Source: Hydrogenophilales bacterium 16-64-46 (GTDB lineage: Bacteria > Pseudomonadota > Gammaproteobacteria > Burkholderiales > Thiobacillaceae). Taken from it: DNA of 64,000 bases. The DNA lies in assembly GCA_002281775.1 (NCBI GenBank), contig NCGY01000002.1:248001-312000 (forward strand). The letters run 5' to 3'. Shown piece by piece: positions 19,880 to 30,415 of this stretch (positions within the stretch are counted from its first letter, which is position 1; every line of letters begins with the position of its first letter). The translations under genes and the position numbers were made by a program. The notes below the pieces were generated by a model that was not told where the DNA came from, made no database searches, and saw only the letters and a program-made list of their open reading frames with translations.

Positions 19880-22036
19880 ATGCCGTCCATCGCCCGGGTC
19901 GCCCTCGATACGCCGCTCTCGCGGCTGTTCGACTATCGCCTGCTCGCCCCCGCCCATCCGCTGCCGGCCGGCACGCTGGTCGAAGTCCCGTTCGGCCGCA
20001 CGCGGCAGGTAGGCGTGGTGCTCGAGTGCGTGGACGACAGCCCGGTCGCGGCTGGCAAGCTCAAAAGCCTGCTGCGCGTACTGGACGACCGGCCGCCGGT
20101 TTCTCCCGAGATTCTCAAACTGGCGCGCTTCTGCGCCGACTATTACCACCATCCGCTGGGCGCGATCCTCGCCGCCGCCCTGCCGCCCCGGCTAAGGGCC
20201 GCGACGCCGTTTCAGGCCGACACGCCCTGGCTGGTTCTCACGGCTGACGGGCAGAGTGCGGAGCCCTCAGCCCGCGCGCGCGGTCAACGCGCCCTGCTGG
20301 ATGCCCTGAAGGCCGGCCCCCTGGCACGGGAAGTTCTGCGGGCCAATCAGCAGATGCGCCATGCCGCCACACTGGTTGGCACCGGCTGGGCGACGTGGTC
20401 GCGCACGCCGCCCGCGCAAGACGCGCCGCTGCCCACAAGCCGCCCTACACTTACACCGGACCAGCTCGCCACGCTCGACGCCATGCGTCCCGCACTCGAC
20501 CGCTTTGGCGTGCATCTCGTCCACGGCGTCACCGGCAGCGGCAAGACCGAGCTTTACCTGAACCTGATCGCAGACCGGCTCGCGGCCGGCCGGCAAACCC
20601 TGGTACTGATTCCCGAAATCGCCCTCACCCCCCAGCTCGAAGGGCATTTCCGTGCACGTTTTCCAGGCCGCCGCATCGTGGCCCTGCACAGCGGGCTCGG
20701 CGAAAAGGAACGGGCGGAAAACTGGCTCGCCGCACCCGACTGCGATGTGTTGCTCGGCACCCGGCTGGCGGTGTTCGCCCCGCTGCCCCGGCTGGGCCTG
20801 ATCGCCGTCGACGAGGAACACGATGGCTCATTCAAGCAGCAGGATGGGCTGCGCTATTCCGCACGCGATGTCGCCATTGCGCGCGGCAAGCAGACCAAAG
20901 TGCCGGTGGTACTCGGCTCCGCCACGCCGTCGCTGGAGAGTTATGCGCAGGCGCTGGCCGGACGCTACCAGCTGCACACGCTCACCACGCGCGCCCATCC
21001 CGAGGCGCGCCTGCCCGATATCGAACTCGCCGACCTGCGCCATCTGCCGCAGGACAACGGCCTCACGCGCCCGGCCGTGCAGGCGCTTACCGACGCCCTG
21101 GCACGGGGCGAGCAAAGCCTGGTTTTCCTCAACCGGCGCGGCTACGCCCCCGCGCTCTACTGCCCCAGCTGCGCCTGGGTGTCGCCCTGCCCGCATTGCT
21201 CGGCGAGGCTGGTGCTGCACCGCCGGGCCTGCCGGCTGCGCTGCCACCATTGCGGTTTTGACACAGCAATTCCGCACGCCTGCCCCAGCTGCGGCAACCC
21301 CGACCTGAAACCGCTCGGCCAGGGCACACAAAGGCTGGAAGAAACCCTGGGCGCATTGCTGCCGCAGGCGCGCATCCGCCGCATCGACCGCGACACCATG
21401 CAGCCCCGTGCCTGGGCGGCACTGGGCGAAGCGGTGCGTGCGCGCGAAGTCGACATCCTCGTCGGCACCCAGATGCTCGCCAAGGGCCACGACTTTCCCG
21501 ACATGACGCTTGCGCTCATCCTCGACACCGACGGCGCGCTCTACAGCCCGGACTTTCGTGCGACCGAACGCCTGTTCGCCCAGCTGATGCAAGTGGCCGG
21601 ACGCGCCGGCCGGGCCGACAAGCCCGGACGCGTGCTGATCCAGACCGCCTTCCCAGACCACCCGCTGTTCCGTTACCTGCAACGCCACGACTATCCCGGC
21701 CACGCCCGCGCGCTGCTCGCCGAACGCCGCCAGCTCGACCTGCCGCCCCATACCCGGCAGGTCCTGTTGCGTGCCGAAGCCCCTTCCATGGACGCCGCAC
21801 TCGCCTTCCTGCGGCGCGCGGCAGCGCTGTTGCCTGCACACCCCGCACTGTCCATCTACGCGCCCACGCCCGCGCCCATGGCGCGCGTGGCCAATCTGGA
21901 GCGCGCCCAGCTGCTGCTGCAATCCCCCAGCCGCCCGGCACTACACGCCTGCCTGTACGACTGGACGCCGCAGCTCGACGGCATCCGCCCGCGCGTGACG
22001 CGCTGGTCGCTGGATATCGATCCGCTGGCGTTCTGA
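19880..22036 (+). CDS. priA: Primosomal replication restart helicase PriA
   Basis: PriA recognises stalled forks and D-loops and starts primosome assembly for replication restart. The 718-residue protein has the N-terminal 3'-end-binding domain (FDYRLLAPAHPLPAGTLVEV), a DEAH-type helicase core with Walker A GVTGSGKTELY (near residue 219) and Walker B DEEH, and a zinc-binding insertion. The insertion has paired cysteines (CPSCAWVSPCPHC, then CRLRCHHCGF and CPSCGNP, about 430-475). Motif VAGRAGRADKPG is also clear. The ATG gives the family N-terminus MPSIARVALDTPLSRLFDYR. The long leader carries DnaA boxes and hairpins. Confidence 0.97.
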   Translation: MPSIARVALDTPLSRLFDYRLLAPAHPLPAGTLVEVPFGRTRQVGVVLECVDDSPVAAGKLKSLLRVLDDRPPVSPEILKLARFCADYYHHPLGAILAAALPPRLRAATPFQADTPWLVLTADGQSAEPSARARGQRALLDALKAGPLAREVLRANQQMRHAATLVGTGWATWSRTPPAQDAPLPTSRPTLTPDQLATLDAMRPALDRFGVHLVHGVTGSGKTELYLNLIADRLAAGRQTLVLIPEIALTPQLEGHFRARFPGRRIVALHSGLGEKERAENWLAAPDCDVLLGTRLAVFAPLPRLGLIAVDEEHDGSFKQQDGLRYSARDVAIARGKQTKVPVVLGSATPSLESYAQALAGRYQLHTLTTRAHPEARLPDIELADLRHLPQDNGLTRPAVQALTDALARGEQSLVFLNRRGYAPALYCPSCAWVSPCPHCSARLVLHRRACRLRCHHCGFDTAIPHACPSCGNPDLKPLGQGTQRLEETLGALLPQARIRRIDRDTMQPRAWAALGEAVRAREVDILVGTQMLAKGHDFPDMTLALILDTDGALYSPDFRATERLFAQLMQVAGRAGRADKPGRVLIQTAFPDHPLFRYLQRHDYPGHARALLAERRQLDLPPHTRQVLLRAEAPSMDAALAFLRRAAALLPAHPALSIYAPTPAPMARVANLERAQLLLQSPSRPALHACLYDWTPQLDGIRPRVTRWSLDIDPLAF

Positions 22037-22116
22037 ATTGAATCCAGGCGGGATGGATAGCCCGGCTCTTCTTGTTTAAAGTACCCTAGCAGCGATGACC
22101 AAAACAGGGAGCCGAG

Positions 22117-22323
22117 ATGAAAGGTCCAGCCTCTTCCTCGCCTGCGCAGGCCTACCTAGACACGGTGAGTCCTTTCGGTAGCGCTTTCACGCCCGAGGAA
22201 TCCTTCCGCTTTCAAGTACTGTACGTCGCCGAGCATCCTGGCCTGTTCGGCCAACAGGCTTCAGCCTCGCCTGGGGCCAGGGTGCCACTGTCCCCTACGT
22301 CACGCCTGAATCGCGCCCCATGA
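22117..22323 (+). CDS. Hypothetical 68-residue protein upstream of the exported-protein operon
   Basis: The ATG has a fair AGGGAG ribosome site 5 bases upstream and the stop overlaps the next ATG by 4 bases (ATGA), which favours translation. The first 48 residues (SSSPAQAYLDTVSPFGSAFT..., FRFQVLYVAEHPGLFGQQ) look protein-like. The last 20 (ASPGARVPLSPTSRLNRAP) look like an out-of-frame GC-rich tail. Another frame from 22267 reads FSLAWGQGATVPYVTPESRP into the next gene. It may be a remnant with a frameshift. No family is recognised. Confidence 0.35.
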   Translation: MKGPASSSPAQAYLDTVSPFGSAFTPEESFRFQVLYVAEHPGLFGQQASASPGARVPLSPTSRLNRAP

Positions 22324-24497
22324 AACTGACCATGCTGTCTGCCTTCTGGCGGAACGTGTCTGTCCATGTATGGGCGTGGATCGTCCTGTTTGTTGCCACA
22401 ACTGCCCACGCGCAAGCCGACCCTGCCAGTGCATCAGCCACATCCGAATGCATACGCCTCGAAGAGCGAGTTAACGACGCCGAACGTGCCGCCGCAGAGG
22501 GTGGCTTTCGGGGGCGGGCCGAGCTCATCAGGCTGCGCAAGGATTACGCCGCACGTTGTCAGCCCGCGCAGCCCGTCGCGCGTCAACCCCGACCCGAGCC
22601 CGAATTCGTGCCGCAAGTCGGCGCGCTGATCGACTGCGAAAAACTCGAACGCGATTGGCTGGCGGCGATGCAGCACGCGGAAAACGCCCGCCTGCCGCCC
22701 GCCACGCCTGACCCGGCTATCCGAAAATTCCGGCAGGAATGCCCGGACGAAGCGCGCGCGGCGCAAGAGCGCAGGCACCACGATATCGACGCACGCGGCC
22801 CGGCGGGTTTCGAGCGGGTGCGCACGCCCGGCACCTATGGCGACTGGCTCGAACCGCTCGATGAACAGGGGTGTCGGGGTAACAACGCCGAGCGTGACGC
22901 GTGCGCGGAAAAGATTATCGCCACCGCGCTGGCCGAGGGGCGACTCGCGCAGGCCGAGGTCGATGCCTGCCGCAATCCGTTCGCCGCCGCCTCGTCGCGC
23001 AACGCGCGTACCGCCGAGATCCAGCAGCGTCGCAGGGAAGCGCTCCCTTCAGAACTGCGCAAGCCTGAACGCGGCGCGTGGGAAACCTGGCGCCGGGATA
23101 CGCCGGACTGCCGCCTCGAATCTAAAGTGAGCGCGAGCTTCACCGACCGTAGCAAGTCGCCGAGCCGGATGCAGAACCGCCCAGCCACGCCCGGCGACCG
23201 CGACTGCGGCTTGAATGTCGTCGATCCCCCGCGTTGCGATTTCGCCGACGCGCTGGTCAAACCCGGCTATGAACACTGGGAAGCGCGCGCCCACGAGCAG
23301 TGCGTGCGCCGCGACCCGCTCGCGCGCAGCGAACGCGGCTATTGCACGCGCAAGGTGATCGAGCGCGCGCTGGCCGAAAAGCAGATTTCGAAGTCCGTAT
23401 ACGAACAGTGCCGGCGCGCGGCGGCGGCGGGTGGCGACACGGTGAATATCTGCCTCGAAGCACGCGCGATTCTGGATCGCGTCGGCACGTCGAAAGTCGT
23501 CTCGAAACGCACGCCCGCCGCGCCGCCGCGCGTCGATCTCTCCGGCTACAAGCAATCCGCGCTGATCCGGGCGATCCAGCACCGCGACTGGTCAAACGCG
23601 CCGTTTGCCGAACGCGCCTACGGCGTGACGCTCTTCATGCGGCTGGGCGCGGCCTGCCCGAATCTCGGCCACGCCGACACCCTGCCGCGCCTGATCCAGC
23701 GCTGGCAGAACGCGCCGCGCGAAACCGCCGCCCGGCTGCTGTCCGGCCAGGGCACGGCGCGCGATCTGACGCAGCTATTGATCGACGCCGAACAGATTTT
23801 TGGCGGGCTGGAAAACTGCGACCGCCTCCCGGCTTTTTCTTCCGAGCGCGAGCAGTGCGAACAAAACCGCGCCGCACGCCGCAACACCCCGGCCTCGCCC
23901 TACGGCGAGCACGACGCCCGCCGCTGGCTGACGAAAAACGCCTGCGCGAGCCCCGTCACCACGCACTTCAGCCAGCGCCTTACCGAGTGGCTGTTCCTCG
24001 ACGACGCCGCGCGCGGCAGCATGAGCTGGGCGGCGAATCATCCCCGCCGCCGCGAATTGAGCGCACTGTTCGAGCACTGCCGCCTGCAGGCCGGCGACGG
24101 CGTCGCCGACGCGTGGTGCGGCTGTTACGTCCGCCAATTTGCCGCCATCCAGCAGGACGACACGCGCTTTCGCAACGCCGCCGTGCTCGCCGCCAACCGC
24201 GCCAGCGCTTTCGTTGGCGACGGCGCGTGGTTCAACCAGTTCGGCGGCGGCGATGCTTGCAGCGCGCACACCGAGCGCATCGCGCAATGGCGGCGTGGCC
24301 AGAGCGCAAGGCCGCGCGTCACCGCCTGCCTCGTCGCGCAAACGCCCGCGCCTGCGCGCCTCACGCCCGGCACAGAAGCCTGCCGCTACCGCACCGCGTG
24401 GGGCGAGCTGCTGTTTTACGACACCACCTGCCGCGACCGCCTCTACGCTCACCAGTGGGGCAGCGAGCCCGTGGCCTGCCAGGGAGACCCACGATGA
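22320..24497 (+). CDS. Large cysteine-rich exported protein of unknown function
   Basis: A 725-residue protein with a signal peptide (hydrophobic 15-27, cleavage near AHA|QA, residue 31) and many cysteines, so probably disulfide-bonded in the periplasm. It contains an internal repeat. Residues 176-217 (Cys185, Cys195, Cys217) and 320-364 (Cys328, Cys342, Cys364) share a W...C...C...K(I/V)I...ALAE...C pattern, with exactly 21 residues between the last two cysteines of each copy. Arg/Ala-rich stretches lie between. No known domain is recognised. It overlaps the neighbours by 4 bases on both sides, so it is part of one operon with the Sel1/rhodanese lipoprotein. dsbA lies 5 kb downstream. Confidence 0.75.
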   Translation: MKLTMLSAFWRNVSVHVWAWIVLFVATTAHAQADPASASATSECIRLEERVNDAERAAAEGGFRGRAELIRLRKDYAARCQPAQPVARQPRPEPEFVPQVGALIDCEKLERDWLAAMQHAENARLPPATPDPAIRKFRQECPDEARAAQERRHHDIDARGPAGFERVRTPGTYGDWLEPLDEQGCRGNNAERDACAEKIIATALAEGRLAQAEVDACRNPFAAASSRNARTAEIQQRRREALPSELRKPERGAWETWRRDTPDCRLESKVSASFTDRSKSPSRMQNRPATPGDRDCGLNVVDPPRCDFADALVKPGYEHWEARAHEQCVRRDPLARSERGYCTRKVIERALAEKQISKSVYEQCRRAAAAGGDTVNICLEARAILDRVGTSKVVSKRTPAAPPRVDLSGYKQSALIRAIQHRDWSNAPFAERAYGVTLFMRLGAACPNLGHADTLPRLIQRWQNAPRETAARLLSGQGTARDLTQLLIDAEQIFGGLENCDRLPAFSSEREQCEQNRAARRNTPASPYGEHDARRWLTKNACASPVTTHFSQRLTEWLFLDDAARGSMSWAANHPRRRELSALFEHCRLQAGDGVADAWCGCYVRQFAAIQQDDTRFRNAAVLAANRASAFVGDGAWFNQFGGGDACSAHTERIAQWRRGQSARPRVTACLVAQTPAPARLTPGTEACRYRTAWGELLFYDTTCRDRLYAHQWGSEPVACQGDPR

Positions 24498-26851
24498 AGA
24501 ACTGGTTGCTGTTGCTGCTCTTGCCGTGGCTGCTCGCGGGCTGCGTGCTGGAGCGTTTCGCGTTGCCGAACAACTACGCGCCGAAGCACTCCGGTATGAC
24601 CACGCCGCTCGCCGACGGGGCGGTCTTCAAGGGCGTGGCCGACCCGAAAAAAGGCGGCGAGATCTTCCTGCGCTTCGTCAAGACCGGGCCCGCGCAGTAC
24701 GTCGCCGAACATTTTGTCGCCATGCCCGACGGCGAAGACATTGCGCTTGCCCCCGCCCACGTCCGCTTCCTGCCGCTGGGCGGCGCGCACTACGCGCTCT
24801 ACTGGAAGCGCATCGGCGAAGAACCGAAACAGGGCTACGCGCTGGTGCGGCTCGATGCCGGACGCTTGCAGGTGCTGGAGCCGATGAGCCAGTTGTCCAC
24901 GCTCGCGCTGGCGAAGGCGCACGGCATCGCCGCCCAACCGCCCGGCCTCGTTGGCGGCTATACCTTCGACACCGGGGACGAGGCGCGCGTGCTCAAGTTC
25001 TTCAAGGATCTTGCTACGCGCAAGACCGAGGCGACGCTGACGCTCGCCGCGACCAAGCAGGTTCCCGCCGACCTGCGGACACGCACCTACGCTAAGCTCG
25101 GCGAACACATTCCGCGCCTCAAACGCAACGATCTCGGCAGCGAGACCGACGCCGCAGCCGTCGTCGCGTGGGCGCAGCGCCTCGCGCGTGAAGGCGACGG
25201 CCACGGGCAGCATCTGCTGGCGCGCCTCGCGGCCAACGGCTGGGGTATGCCCGCCGACGGCGCGGTCGCGATCCGCGAAGCCGAAGCCGCAGTGAAGAAC
25301 GGCGTGCCGCAAGCCGCGCACGTCATCGCCGCCATGCACTACTACGGTGTGGGTGTGCCTGCCGACCCGGCACGGGCGCTGCCGTACGCGCGCCGGGCGG
25401 CGGAAGCGGGATCGCCGGGCGCGATGCTGTTGCTGGGCTTCGCCTACGGTAACGGTCGCGGCGTGGCGCAGGATCGCGAAGCCGCCAAGCGCTGGCTGCA
25501 AGGTGCGATGGATCGCAACTACGGCCCCGCCTTTGCGCAATGGGCCGACCTCGTGCTCACCGAAAAAACCGAAGCCGCCGACCGCGCCGCCTTGCCCGCG
25601 ATCGAGCGCGGCGTCGCCCATAACGACGCGCGGGCGCATGTGCTGCGCGGGGTGTTCCACGAGAACGGGCGCGCAGGACTCAAGGACATGGACGCGGCGA
25701 TGAAGCACTTTCTCGCCGCCGCCGAGCTTGGCGATGCCTATGCCAAGTATCTCGTCGGCTACCGCCTGCGCCACGGCCAGCACATCGCGCAGGACATCCC
25801 GCGCGGGCGTGCGCTGCTGGCCGAGGCTGCGCAGGCGGGGATAGCGGATGCGGCAAATGCTATAGAAACCGATGCCCCAGCGGTGTATCTCGCGCTGGGT
25901 GTTGCCTACCGTGATGGCGACGGGGTCACCCAGAATCTTGATCAGGCAAGAGGCTGGCTTGAGAAAGCGGTCAGCGCCGAGCAGTGGGAAGCCAACGCGG
26001 AGCTGGCCAGGATACTCATCAGGGACAACACGCCTTCATCGAAAATACGCGCGCGGGAGCTCATCGAGCTAGGCGTGGAAAAGAACCAGGCCAATGCCTA
26101 TCACCTGCGCGGCACAAGTTATGCCAGTGGATGGTGGGGCCAGATTGACTGGCAACGCGCGTACAGCGACTTCTTGCGAGCCGCCGAATTTGGCCACGCC
26201 CCGGCCCAGAAAACAATCGGTGCGATGCAGCTGGATGGCCTTGGAACCCGGAAAAGCGAAGTCGAGGGGCGCTACTGGCTGCGGCGCGCAGCCGATGCCG
26301 GCGACCAGGATGCGCATGACATGGTCCGGGCACGCGGAATCCCATCCTGGACACCCATATCCCGTCTGGCCACTCTGGCCCGAGAGCGCTATGCAGACGA
26401 AGACAGGGATTTTGGCCTGCCGCCCAGTGACGCGCCCATCACATCGGGATTCCATCGCGACACCCCCTTGCGGGTGCCAGGGGCGCGCACAGTCAATACT
26501 AACGAAGTGAAATCGCTTCTGAAGGCCAAGCCTGCTCCCATTGTGATCGATGTTTATGGCGAAACGGAAAGCCTGCCAGGGGCGGTTTATCTCAAAGGTT
26601 TCGGCCTGTACAGACCCGTGATGGGGCGCATTACCAAAACCCGCGCAGTACTTGACCCCCTGATCGGCAGCGATCGCAATCGCGGGATCATTTTCCTATG
26701 TGTCAGCGTGAGGTGCTGGCATTCCTACAATGCCGCAATGTTTGCGCTCGAAGCGGGTTACACCGATGTCATGTGGTATCGCGGAGGGCTGACGAGCTGG
26801 AAGTCCGCGAAACAGAAAACCGCTGTGCCGCAACGGATTGTCTGGGAGTAA
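24494..26851 (+). CDS. Sel1-repeat lipoprotein with C-terminal CXXXXCW rhodanese-like domain
   Basis: A 785-residue lipoprotein with signal MKNWLLLLLLPWLLAGC, lipobox LAGC and modified Cys17. Residues about 20-210 form an unrecognised N-terminal domain. About 215-640 is a run of Sel1/TPR-like repeats (for example AAHVIAAMHYYGVGVPADPA and AMLLLGFAYGNGRGVAQDRE). The last about 110 residues form a rhodanese-like domain (IVIDVYGETESLPGAVYL) whose loop reads CVSVRCWHSYNAAMFALEAG, Cys736 and Cys741-Trp742. This resembles the rhodanese-like CXXCW proteins linked to PQQ-dependent catabolism more than classic sulfurtransferases. The start overlaps the previous stop (ATGA). The function is unknown; a scaffold plus redox or sulfur-handling role is an inference. 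Confidence 0.82.
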   Translation: MKNWLLLLLLPWLLAGCVLERFALPNNYAPKHSGMTTPLADGAVFKGVADPKKGGEIFLRFVKTGPAQYVAEHFVAMPDGEDIALAPAHVRFLPLGGAHYALYWKRIGEEPKQGYALVRLDAGRLQVLEPMSQLSTLALAKAHGIAAQPPGLVGGYTFDTGDEARVLKFFKDLATRKTEATLTLAATKQVPADLRTRTYAKLGEHIPRLKRNDLGSETDAAAVVAWAQRLAREGDGHGQHLLARLAANGWGMPADGAVAIREAEAAVKNGVPQAAHVIAAMHYYGVGVPADPARALPYARRAAEAGSPGAMLLLGFAYGNGRGVAQDREAAKRWLQGAMDRNYGPAFAQWADLVLTEKTEAADRAALPAIERGVAHNDARAHVLRGVFHENGRAGLKDMDAAMKHFLAAAELGDAYAKYLVGYRLRHGQHIAQDIPRGRALLAEAAQAGIADAANAIETDAPAVYLALGVAYRDGDGVTQNLDQARGWLEKAVSAEQWEANAELARILIRDNTPSSKIRARELIELGVEKNQANAYHLRGTSYASGWWGQIDWQRAYSDFLRAAEFGHAPAQKTIGAMQLDGLGTRKSEVEGRYWLRRAADAGDQDAHDMVRARGIPSWTPISRLATLARERYADEDRDFGLPPSDAPITSGFHRDTPLRVPGARTVNTNEVKSLLKAKPAPIVIDVYGETESLPGAVYLKGFGLYRPVMGRITKTRAVLDPLIGSDRNRGIIFLCVSVRCWHSYNAAMFALEAGYTDVMWYRGGLTSWKSAKQKTAVPQRIVWE

Positions 26852-26856
26852 GTGAT

Positions 26857-27371
26857 ATGGCTTACAGGCTTGAACCTCGCTGGCGTAAACTCTCCGTGGC
26901 AAGTTACCTGCTGATGGGGCTGACACCCCACTGCTCGCGACCCCCGCCAGCGCCAGCATCACCCTGTGCAACCGGGGCAAGACTACGCTGAGCTGCGTGA
27001 TGATCAGGAATTACTGGTCGCTCGGGGCGAACTTCATGCCCGCCGAATCCTGGTCGGCGGACGGCTGGCATCAGCTTTCGCCTGGCTGCAGAAAAGTCAT
27101 CGACGCGCCACAGCTACTGCACGCGTTTTTCCTGATTCAGAAACCTGTAGGCAAACGCTGGCGCACCTTGAAATATCCCATCAAGCCACCGGGGTATGGT
27201 CAGGGTTCGTCCGGGACAGACCAGCGCTTCTGCGTCAGTGAAGACAAAGTCTGGCGGCGCACCCAGACACTGGAGGCGCTGGCTGTCTGCCCGAAAGGGC
27301 AGCGACTCGAAACCTTTTCGCTCTACGTGAAGAGTTTTGCCAATACGGACTTCACCGGCGATCTGGAATGA
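26857..27371 (+). pseudogene. Secreted DUF1036-like protein, frameshifted in the signal peptide
   Basis: The ATG at 26857, 5 bases after the previous stop, opens a signal peptide (MAYRLEPRWRKLSVASYLLM) that runs out of frame and stops at 26991. One extra base at the CCCC run 26926-26929 would join it to a second frame reading LLATPASASITLCNRGKTTL. That frame then gives a complete Cys-rich domain with CVMIRNYW, SADGWHQLSPGCRKVI, QRFCVSEDKVW and AVCPKG, ending at 27371. The pattern C-N near the start, GW..L.PG.C and a late FCV fits DUF1036-type secreted proteins. The downstream frame alone is open from a GTG at 26997. It is either a recent pseudogene or a sequencing error. Confidence 0.65.
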
Positions 27372-27491
27372 GACAGAAACCCTAGCACGCTGCGCAAATT
27401 CCGCTTTTGACAGCACACCGCGGCAATTCGCTTGAGTTCGTCCCAGCAAGGCAAAGGCTGTATTCAATCCTTGCTGCACATACACTCTATT

Positions 27492-27519
27492 GGGACAGTC
27501 CAAGGCTGACGCTTATAAT
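27492..27519 (+). promoter_or_regulatory. Sigma-70-type promoter for argS
   Basis: GGGACA (27492-27497) and a perfect TATAAT (27514-27519) with 16-base spacing, 45 bases before the argS ATG. The rest of 27372-27564 has no gene. Confidence 0.6.
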
Positions 27520-27564: not shown

Positions 27565-29238
27565 ATGTCCAGCACACACCCCATCAAAGACCTCATCGTC
27601 CGCCTGCTCGGCGAAGCCCTCGACACCGTCGCCCCGGACACCCCGGTGAGCCTCGACATCGAACGCCCGAAAAACGCCACGCATGGGGACTTCTCGTGCA
27701 ACGTGGCGATGCAGCTGGCGCGGCCGCTGAAGAAAAATCCGCGCGAGCTGGCGCAGCACATCCTCAACGAATTGCCCGCGTCGCCACTGGTTGCGCGCAC
27801 CGAAATTGCAGGGGCGGGGTTCATCAACTTTCATCTGGCCCCGGCCGCCTGGCATGGCATCGTGCCGCGCATTCGCGCGGAGGGCGCTGCGTATGGCCGG
27901 GGCGATGCCGGGCAGGGCCAGCGGGTGCTGGTGGAATTCGTCTCGGCCAACCCCACCGGGCCGCTGCATGTGGGCCATGGCCGCCAGGCCGCGCTCGGCG
28001 ACGCGCTGTGCAACCTCTTCGCGACGCAAGGCTGGGCCGTGCATCGCGAGTTCTATTACAACGACGCCGGGGTGCAGATCGCCACGCTAGCCACCAGCGT
28101 GCAGGCCCGCGCCAAAGGCCTGAAGCCGGGCGACGCGGGCTGGCCGGAAGCCGCCTACAACGGCGAATACATCGGCGATATCGCGACCGATTTTCTCGCC
28201 GGCAAGACCGTGCGTGCAGACGACCGCGAGGTGACGGCCAGCGGCAACGCCGACGACCTCGACGCCCTCCGCGAATTCGCCGTCGCATACCTGCGCCACG
28301 AGCAGGATCTGGATCTGAAGGCCTTTGCGGTGAAGTTCGATCACTTCTACCTCGAATCCAGCCTCTACACCTCCGGGCGCGTCGAAGCGACGGTCAACAC
28401 GCTCGTCGCCAACGGCAAGACCTACGAACATGACGGCGCACTGTGGCTGCGCACGACGGATTACGGCGACGACAAGGACCGCGTGATGAAGAAGTCCGAC
28501 GGCGGCTACACCTATTTCGTGCCGGACGTGGCCTACCACATCGCCAAATGGGAACGCGGCTATACGCGCGCGATCAACATCCAAGGTACCGACCACCACG
28601 GCACCATCGCCCGCGTGCGCGCCGGCCTGCAGGCCGTGGGTCTCGGCATTGCCGAGGGCTATCCCGATTACCTGCTGCACACCATGGTGCGGGTAATGCG
28701 CGGCGGCGAAGAAGTGAAGATTTCCAAGCGCGCCGGCAGCTACGTCACCCTGCGCGACCTGATCGAATGGACGAGCAAGGACGCAGTGCGCTTCTTCCTG
28801 CTGTCACGCAAGCCCGACACCGAATACGTCTTCGATGTCGACCTCGCGCTGGCGAAGAACAACGACAACCCGGTCTACTACGTACAGTACGCCCACGCCC
28901 GCATCTGCCGGGTGTTCGAAGAATGGGGCGGCCAGCCTGCCAGCCTTGCGGACGCCAGCCTCGCGCCACTCACCGCCCCGCACGAACTCGCGCTGATGCA
29001 GCGTCTTGCCGAATACCCGGAAGTGATCGCAACCGCCGCCCAGGAGCTTTCGCCACACCTTGTGGTGCATTACCTCACCACCCTGGCCGGCGATTTCCAC
29101 GCCTGGTACAACGCCGAGAAATTCCTCGTCGACGACCCCGCCACCCGGCTTGCCCGGCTGGCGCTGGCCGAAGCGTGCCGGATCACGATTGTTAACGGTC
29201 TCGCCTTGCTCGGCGTCAGTGCCCCGGAGACAATGTAG
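27565..29238 (+). CDS. argS: Arginyl-tRNA synthetase
   Basis: A class I synthetase of 557 residues that charges tRNA-Arg. The Add1 N-terminal domain (about 1-115) precedes the HIGH motif as HVGH at 135-138 in [18 protein letters not shown]. The KMSKS position is replaced by [13 protein letters not shown], as is common in ArgRS. The C-terminal DALR-type anticodon domain is intact ([10 protein letters not shown] and onward). The ATG at 27565 ([15 protein letters not shown]) is chosen over an upstream in-frame start that would overlap the promoter. Two downstream genes (SPOR, dsbA) follow closely. Confidence 0.97.
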
Positions 29239-29240
29239 TC

Positions 29241-29774
29241 ATGGCCAAACCCGTATCCCGTCCCGCCAAGCGCGGCGGCAGTTCCATCTTTGCCGGTGTG
29301 CTGATCGGCCTGACCGTCGGAGCGGTGCTCACTGTGGGAGTCGCGCTCTGGGTCACCGACAACAACCCGTTCAAGATCGACCCGCCGCCGGCTGCGCCTG
29401 CCGCACCCGAACCTGCCGCCACACCCGAACCCGCGCCGAGCTTCGACTTTTACAAGGTGCTACCCGGTGACGAGTCGACCGCCCTGCCCGCCGCCGCCCC
29501 GCCTGCCGCCCCGCCCACTCCGCGTTATTACCTGCAGGCCGGCGCGTTCCAGAACGCCGACGACGCCGACAACCTCAAGGCCCAGCTCGCCCTGCTGGGC
29601 GTGGAAGCCGCAATCCAGACCAGCGAAATCCCCGACAAGGGCGTGTTCCATCGTGTCCGCATCGGCCCCTTCCTGGCCATGGACCAGGTGAACAGCACCC
29701 GCAGCCTGCTAGCGCAGAACAATATTCCCGCCACGCTGGTCAGAGAAGAACCTAACCCACAGGAGACGCCTTGA
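29241..29774 (+). CDS. SPOR-domain cell-division-type membrane protein
   Basis: A 177-residue bitopic protein with a basic N-terminus, one membrane helix (about 16-38), a Pro/Ala-rich periplasmic linker (about 48-95) and a C-terminal SPOR domain (about 95-170, RYYLQAGAFQNADDADNLKA, then HRVRIGPF). SPOR domains bind denuded peptidoglycan at division sites; the layout is that of FtsN-like proteins. It starts 2 bases after argS and its stop overlaps the dsbA start. The argS-SPOR-dsbA order is common in Betaproteobacteria. Confidence 0.88.
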   Translation: MAKPVSRPAKRGGSSIFAGVLIGLTVGAVLTVGVALWVTDNNPFKIDPPPAAPAAPEPAATPEPAPSFDFYKVLPGDESTALPAAAPPAAPPTPRYYLQAGAFQNADDADNLKAQLALLGVEAAIQTSEIPDKGVFHRVRIGPFLAMDQVNSTRSLLAQNNIPATLVREEPNPQETP

Positions 29775-30415
29775 TGTTCAGCCGCGCCCTGGCCTTTGTG
29801 GCCGCCGCCGTTTTTTCGCTATCCGCTTTTGCCGCCGAACCCATTTTCGAGGGTCACGACTACACGCGGGTGAGCCCGCCGCGCGCCGTGGCCACCGGCA
29901 ACAAGGTCGAAGTGCTGGAGTTCTTCTGGTATCGCTGCCCGCACTGCTTCCAGCTTGAACCCGCACTGTCGAAATGGCTCAAGACCCTACCCAAGGACGC
30001 GCAGATCCGCCGCGTGCCCGCCGTGTTCCGGCCGGACTGGATGCCGGGGGCCAAGCTCTATTACGCCCTAGAGGAGATGCGACTGCTTGGCCGTTTGCAC
30101 CACAAGGTTTTCGATGCCTACCACATTGAAGGACTCGACCTCGACAACCCTGAAGTCCTGCGGACCTGGCTCACCAAACACCGCATTGACCAGACCAAGT
30201 TCAATGTTGCCTACAACTTTGGCGGGCCCGGCAAGGCCAAAGCCGGTCAGAAACTTGCCACGGCCTACGGCATCCAGGGCGTCCCCGCCTTCATCGTCGA
30301 CGGCAAGTACGCCACCTCGGTGTCACAGGCCGGCAGCGAAGCCCGTCTGTTCGAGGTGCTCGATCAGCTCATCGCCAAGGCGCGCGCCGAGCGTAAAGCC
30401 AAGAAATCCAAATAA
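29774..30415 (+). CDS. dsbA: Thiol:disulfide interchange protein DsbA
   Basis: A 213-residue periplasmic oxidoreductase that introduces disulfide bonds into exported proteins. The signal peptide is cleaved near AFA|AE (residue 20). The active site is Cys55-Pro-His-Cys58 in FFWYRCPHCFQLEP, and the cis-Pro loop is GVPAFIVDGKY. AGGAG at 29761-29765 is 8 bases from the ATG, and the ATG overlaps the previous stop (TGATG); a TTG one codon earlier is a less likely start. Cys-rich exported proteins at 22320 and 26857 are possible clients. Confidence 0.95.
   Translation: MFSRALAFVAAAVFSLSAFAAEPIFEGHDYTRVSPPRAVATGNKVEVLEFFWYRCPHCFQLEPALSKWLKTLPKDAQIRRVPAVFRPDWMPGAKLYYALEEMRLLGRLHHKVFDAYHIEGLDLDNPEVLRTWLTKHRIDQTKFNVAYNFGGPGKAKAGQKLATAYGIQGVPAFIVDGKYATSVSQAGSEARLFEVLDQLIAKARAERKAKKSK

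Follow-up and report, generated by a model that had tools for sequence, protein, structure and literature searches.

A Sel1-rhodanese fusion lipoprotein and a rare disulfide-rich exported protein in a lineage-specific insert between priA and argS

PspE of E. coli is a periplasmic single-domain exported rhodanese with a catalytic cysteine (PMC2593051). Relatives of the NCBIfam family TIGR03865 (PQQ_CXXCW), another kind of exported rhodanese, occur in ped-type gene clusters (PMC12997753; PMC12826043). For the related rhodaneses of PQQ-dehydrogenase clusters, help in disulfide formation, redox control or sulfur-species protection have been proposed and are unproven; transposon mutants of these genes showed little phenotype in the conditions tried (PMC12997753). 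A second type of architecture, the Sel1 solenoid of 36-residue repeats, is found in AlgK, MotX and the Sel1 structures 6ok3 and 4bwr. Here we describe a locus of Hydrogenophilales bacterium 16-64-46 in which a single lipoprotein gene carries both architectures next to a gene for an exported protein rich in cysteine.

The locus lies in a window of 64,000 nucleotides, the whole stretch of DNA analysed, and all positions below are those of the window. Between the end of priA at 22036 and the start of argS at 27565 there are two intact overlapping genes (genes 1 and 2) and one broken gene (gene 3). The outer features are as follows.

Approx. 22037..27505, no strand: lineage-specific insert of ~5.4 kb, flanked by the priA stop and by the argS -10 box CTTATAAT at 27512
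27490..27519, + strand: sigma-70-like argS promoter, at the downstream edge of the insert

In 18 of the 20 other genus members that have priA and argS on one fetched piece, the spacer between the two genes is ~70-275 nt long and contains the same CTTATAAT box. Because of this short spacer the genes are read as a ~5.4-kb insert and not as an ancestral operon of the genus; judged from the spacers compared, the stretch is limited to one species of its genus. The remaining two members (L042, L055) have 0.8-1.0 kb with unrelated small ORFs in the priA-argS spacer, a possible insertion spot, and further genus genomes have other genes upstream of argS. The immediate neighbours of the insert genes are priA, argS, SPOR and dsbA genes, with a dsbA-like gene at 29771-30415, three genes downstream. 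No promoter-like site was found upstream of gene 1, and no Rfam match in the region. Origin from a mobile element was considered; searches for plasmid or phage similarity came back empty, and no terminal repeat could be seen by eye.

Sequence searches covered a sample of ~400 genomes each, taken from a much larger order, while scans of contig collections used short exact peptides, which reach close relatives only. Neighbouring genes in other genomes were called with a simple script and named by eye.

Ahead of gene 1 lies a short frame that the original prediction had taken as a possible leader of the operon.

22117..22323, + strand: 68-codon frame with a GGGAG ribosome site, its stop overlapping the start of gene 1

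The GC content by codon position (0.65/0.59/0.63) has no codon-position bias, which makes a conserved gene unlikely, and no family match was found for the frame. It is probably not a functional protein gene; it could be a translational (coupling) leader, since the GGGAG is found there and gene 1 has no ribosome site of its own. The ATGA overlaps at 22320 and 24494 were both recovered, as was the 725-residue reading frame of gene 1.

22320..24497, + strand: gene 1, 725 aa with 26 Cys, Sec-exported, orphan family, 20 Cys conserved in the single homologue
22827..22988, + strand: internal repeat of gene 1, copy 1 (residues 170-223), missing from the homologue
23262..23429, + strand: internal repeat of gene 1, copy 2 (residues 315-370), common to the homologue

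The N-terminus of protein 1 reads by eye as a Sec-type signal peptide. The internal repeat noted earlier is real, residues 170-223 against 315-370 scoring 71 where the best of 300 shuffles reached 66. Among 399 genomes of the order, the sole relative was found on contig 746 of genome G795 (L099:1760-3394), at 45-46% identity (46% over residues 275-722 of protein 1). All 20 Cys of this relative are kept in protein 1 in the alignment, whereas protein 1 has an additional N-terminal part and an extra copy of the internal repeat, the relative lacking copy 1 of the repeat as well as the first helical hairpin. The relative's gene is solitary, and the next gene, which is convergent, encodes an EAL-domain protein (named by eye). 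A Sel1-rhodanese gene was not found in the G795 genome, which is 64% complete and gave generic Sel1 matches only, and eleven other members of its family yielded no relative of gene 1. Comparison of protein 1 with Pfam, NCBIfam, PHROGs, PADLOC, PDB sequences, plasmids, phages and viral contigs returned no relative, nor did a scan of 84,980 species, the contig scans being by short exact peptides and limited to close relatives. Weak class-wide matches (E 0.004-0.01) and one match in L026 were dismissed as chance from the ORFs surrounding them. Protein 1 is mostly helical by a low-confidence prediction. Because the number of Cys is even and all homologue Cys have kept counterparts, the protein is most likely folded through disulfides, which the Dsb pathway would make. 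Gene 1 represents a rare, undescribed disulfide-rich family.

Gene 2 overlaps gene 1 by four bases and is preceded by a GGGAG ribosome site. Its 785-residue frame, lipobox, Sel1 repeats and rhodanese domain with a CXXXXCW motif are present as predicted.

24494..26851, + strand: gene 2, 785-aa lipoprotein with lipobox LAGC, lipid Cys17 and Val at +2; orphan N-terminal domain, Sel1 repeats and C-terminal rhodanese
24566..25108, + strand: N-terminal domain (residues 25-205), no Pfam match
25136..26329, + strand: Sel1 repeats (~residues 215-612), Pfam E 1e-28
26375..26845, + strand: rhodanese domain of the exported kind (residues 628-784; identity to standalone exported rhodaneses 36-42%)
26699..26719, + strand: CVSVRCW (CX4CW), predicted active-site loop with Cys736 and Cys741
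25853..27371, + strand: low-GC3 part, comprising gene 2 from ~codon 454 (GC3 0.66 against 0.85 upstream) plus gene 3

Valine at position +2 after the lipid Cys usually directs a lipoprotein to the outer membrane, and from lipobox and +2 Val the product of gene 2 is predicted to be of the outer-membrane type. Cys17, Cys736 and Cys741 are the only Cys among its 785 residues. Both domain models are matched above their cut-offs, PF08238 (Sel1) in six stretches with 98.9 bits against 30.7 and PF00581 (Rhodanese) with 31.2 bits against 22.2. As in AlgK, MotX, 6ok3 and 4bwr the repeats are of 36 residues and form a Sel1 solenoid; however, the matches to these proteins span the repeats only and leave the rhodanese outside. 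The matches listed for 60 relatives of gene 2 start only at ~residue 188 or later. No other Sel1-rhodanese fusion was found in the genomes searched (~400 per search). Structures predicted for proteins 1 and 2 from single sequences had a mean pLDDT of 44 and 41, respectively, and were too poor for structure searching.

Immunity to type VI lipase effectors is a known role of Sel1 lipoproteins, and gene 2 might likewise shield the periplasm from the phospholipase effectors of rivals. The Sel1 relatives on Klebsiella plasmids, at several places per record, would suit such a protein, but no effector, VgrG or lipase gene adjoins the insert, protein 1 looks Sec-exported and such a role leaves nothing for a rhodanese domain to do; we regard this explanation as highly improbable.

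The two ends of gene 2 differ in composition. GC3 is 0.80 in gene 1 and 0.85 in the first 453 codons of gene 2, which is usual for genes of the window, and falls to 0.66 in the rest of gene 2 and to 0.71 in gene 3. The drop from 0.85 to 0.66 falls within the Sel1 repeats and gives the island a mosaic look. It suggests that gene 2 is a joined gene, recombination having perhaps occurred at the break, and that the low-GC3, rhodanese-bearing half may come from a different source, attached to a resident-like Sel1 lipoprotein.

In a phylogenetic tree the rhodanese of gene 2 clusters with standalone exported CX4CW rhodaneses (support 100/100) on a long branch. The C-terminal ~157 residues align with these and with TIGR03865 proteins end to end, the CX4CW and WYRGG motifs are kept, and C736 falls on the loop Cys of the standalone homologues, the catalytic-cysteine position. 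Like PspE (PMC2593051), gene 2 encodes an exported rhodanese fold with a predicted catalytic cysteine; it differs in the second Cys and the Trp of the loop, and the Sel1 repeats and lipid anchor belong to gene 2 alone. The domain is best read as an exported TIGR03865-like rhodanese, of a kind that can stand by itself or form the C-terminal part of several exported proteins unrelated to one another. The same family forms the tail of a caspase-like and a ClpP-like protein, both without the Cys; a sister group is found at the end of binding proteins of the PhnD and PstS types, including one encoded in this genome (all partners named by eye). Since the branch is long and two related fusion domains have lost the Cys, rhodanese activity of gene 2 is not assured. 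The loci of these rhodanese-tailed caspase-like, ClpP-like, PhnD-type and PstS-type proteins are L091 3051-5288, L076, L064 5646-6809, L077, L079 and L080.

TIGR03865 is the best NCBIfam match of gene 2 (E 3e-16), and with family relatives in ped-type clusters (PMC12997753; PMC12826043) gene 2 could be a rhodanese of this type, recruited to mature or protect a periplasmic quinoprotein dehydrogenase. The match scores 59.8 bits against a cut-off of 128.05, however, and the PQQ-dependent catabolism genes by which TIGR03865 is recognised in its neighbourhood are neither in nor beside the insert. The rhodanese of gene 2 also departs from the TIGR03865 proteins in its long branch, its fusion to Sel1 repeats and its lipid anchor, and other relatives adjoin hydrogenase, sensor-kinase or dsbA genes. 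A role in PQQ enzymes is accordingly improbable in our view. In genome G507 two standalone rhodanese genes adjoin dsbA-like genes, one of them in a priA-argS-SPOR-dsbA locus as here (L089 4153-10499); downstream, that locus also carries the CX4CW rhodanese together with another dsbA-like gene. On an Azospirillum plasmid (L066 4981-6477) an exported rhodanese of the same kind is located within a hydrogenase cluster.

Gene 3 follows gene 2 after the predicted 5-base gap (26852-26856). It had been described as a single ORF for a DUF1036-like secreted Cys protein; it consists instead of two different frames, and the earlier reading apparently crossed a frameshift.

26857..26991, + strand: first frame of gene 3, with the start codon and most of the signal peptide, then out of frame
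26913..27371, + strand: second frame of gene 3, with the end of the signal peptide and a DUF1036-like body (5 Cys); first start codon in this frame at 26997

The frame from the ATG at 26857 stops at 26989-26991, while the DUF1036-like frame is preceded by a stop at 26910-26912 and has no ATG, GTG or TTG until 26997; the two frames being different and the second without a usual start before 26997, a frameshift is placed inside the signal peptide. Its site is at or close to GGGGCTGACACCCC, which forms a small inverted repeat (window positions 26910-26930). The DUF1036 assignment is sub-threshold (PF06282, 14.7 bits against a cut-off of 23). In a MAFFT alignment with DUF1036 proteins an N-terminal CN, a GW and four Cys fall in line, whereas profile comparison is weak: against DUF1036 proteins from elsewhere in the phylum the score is low, with an HHalign probability of 5%. 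The organism's own genome gave no match in the search for DUF1036 proteins, and no true relative of protein 3 was found in the order (~400 genomes per search). Two protein 3 matches below 0.001 and one in the genus were rejected as relatives from the frames they occupy. The frameshift may be an assembly error, all three genes then being intact in the organism, which would fit either of the two main readings given below. MAYRLEPRWRKLSVASYLLMG followed by ADTPLLATPASA reads as one plausible signal peptide across the shift, and the gene 3 body has a GC3 of 0.74 and no further stop; yet there is a single assembly, and the site (GGGGCTGACACCCC) is no long homopolymer. We hold an error to be a tentative explanation, with somewhat less in its favour than against it.

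Taken as a conserved operon or complex, the three genes find no backing. The co-occurrence search, set beforehand as the refutation test, revealed no genome with both genes 1 and 2 in the data at hand; a gene 1 relative was seen once elsewhere, alone, with no Sel1-rhodanese fusion and no protein 3 relative, the insert is absent from the rest of the genus, and gene 3 is frameshifted. No second genome was seen to pair any two of the three genes, which leaves a conserved extracytoplasmic complex unsupported. The evidence does uphold that the proteins are exported, that one of them is disulfide-rich and that another has a thiol-type domain, with 20 of 20 homologue Cys kept in protein 1 and the CX4C pair as the only non-lipid Cys of protein 2, and redox or sulfur handling by the insert genes is possible. 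The lineage-specific insert still stands out for its unusual fusion protein and for a member of a rare disulfide-rich family.

Our main reading, at a probability of roughly 40%, is that the insert encodes accessory cell-envelope proteins, with a client held by Sel1 repeats and a CX4C pair acting on it. The most likely role of gene 2 would be that of an accessory factor of the envelope in thiol/disulfide or sulfane-sulfur chemistry, with its Cys-rich neighbour as a possible target. This reading draws on the absence of the insert from the genus, the lipobox, Sel1 and rhodanese matches, the few Cys of protein 2, the conserved Cys of protein 1, the grouping with standalone rhodaneses of which two adjoin dsbA-like genes, the proposals made for rhodaneses of PQQ-dehydrogenase clusters and the tight coupling of genes 1 and 2; the solitary gene 1 homologue, the long branch and the Cys lost from related domains, the broken gene 3 and the lack of a promoter-like site before gene 1 weigh against it. 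Nearly as likely is that the spacer has gathered loose orphan cargo of no shared function, namely a secreted orphan, a Sel1-rhodanese chimera and a DUF1036-like gene in decay. The GC3 break in gene 2, the gene 3 frameshift, the solitary gene 1 homologue, the co-occurrence found nowhere and the small unrelated ORFs in the same spacer of L042 and L055 all point that way; against it, genes 1 and 2 overlap by four bases, both are intact across 4.5 kb, and the export of both products would be in keeping with a shared task.

For the accessory thiol or sulfur factor, protein 1 would be exported and its disulfides formed via the Dsb pathway. The Sel1 repeats of protein 2 would bind a periplasmic client, with which the CX4C pair would exchange a disulfide or for which it would carry persulfide or sulfane sulfur. 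The client may be the co-expressed Cys-rich protein 1, a guess from adjacency only. A stronger version seems unlikely. In it, genes 1 and 2 would constitute an undescribed two-protein envelope thiol system, and the CX4C rhodanese pair, displayed on the outer-membrane Sel1 scaffold, would oxidise, isomerise or persulfidate one dedicated client protein containing as many as 13 disulfides.

The exported CX4CW rhodanese is apparently a portable tail, carried by a Sel1 lipoprotein, by caspase-like and ClpP-like proteins and by substrate-binding proteins, with the Cys lost in some of them. For the role of CX4CW rhodaneses outside the cytoplasm, a lipoprotein whose only Cys besides the lipid Cys are that one pair offers a clean test subject.
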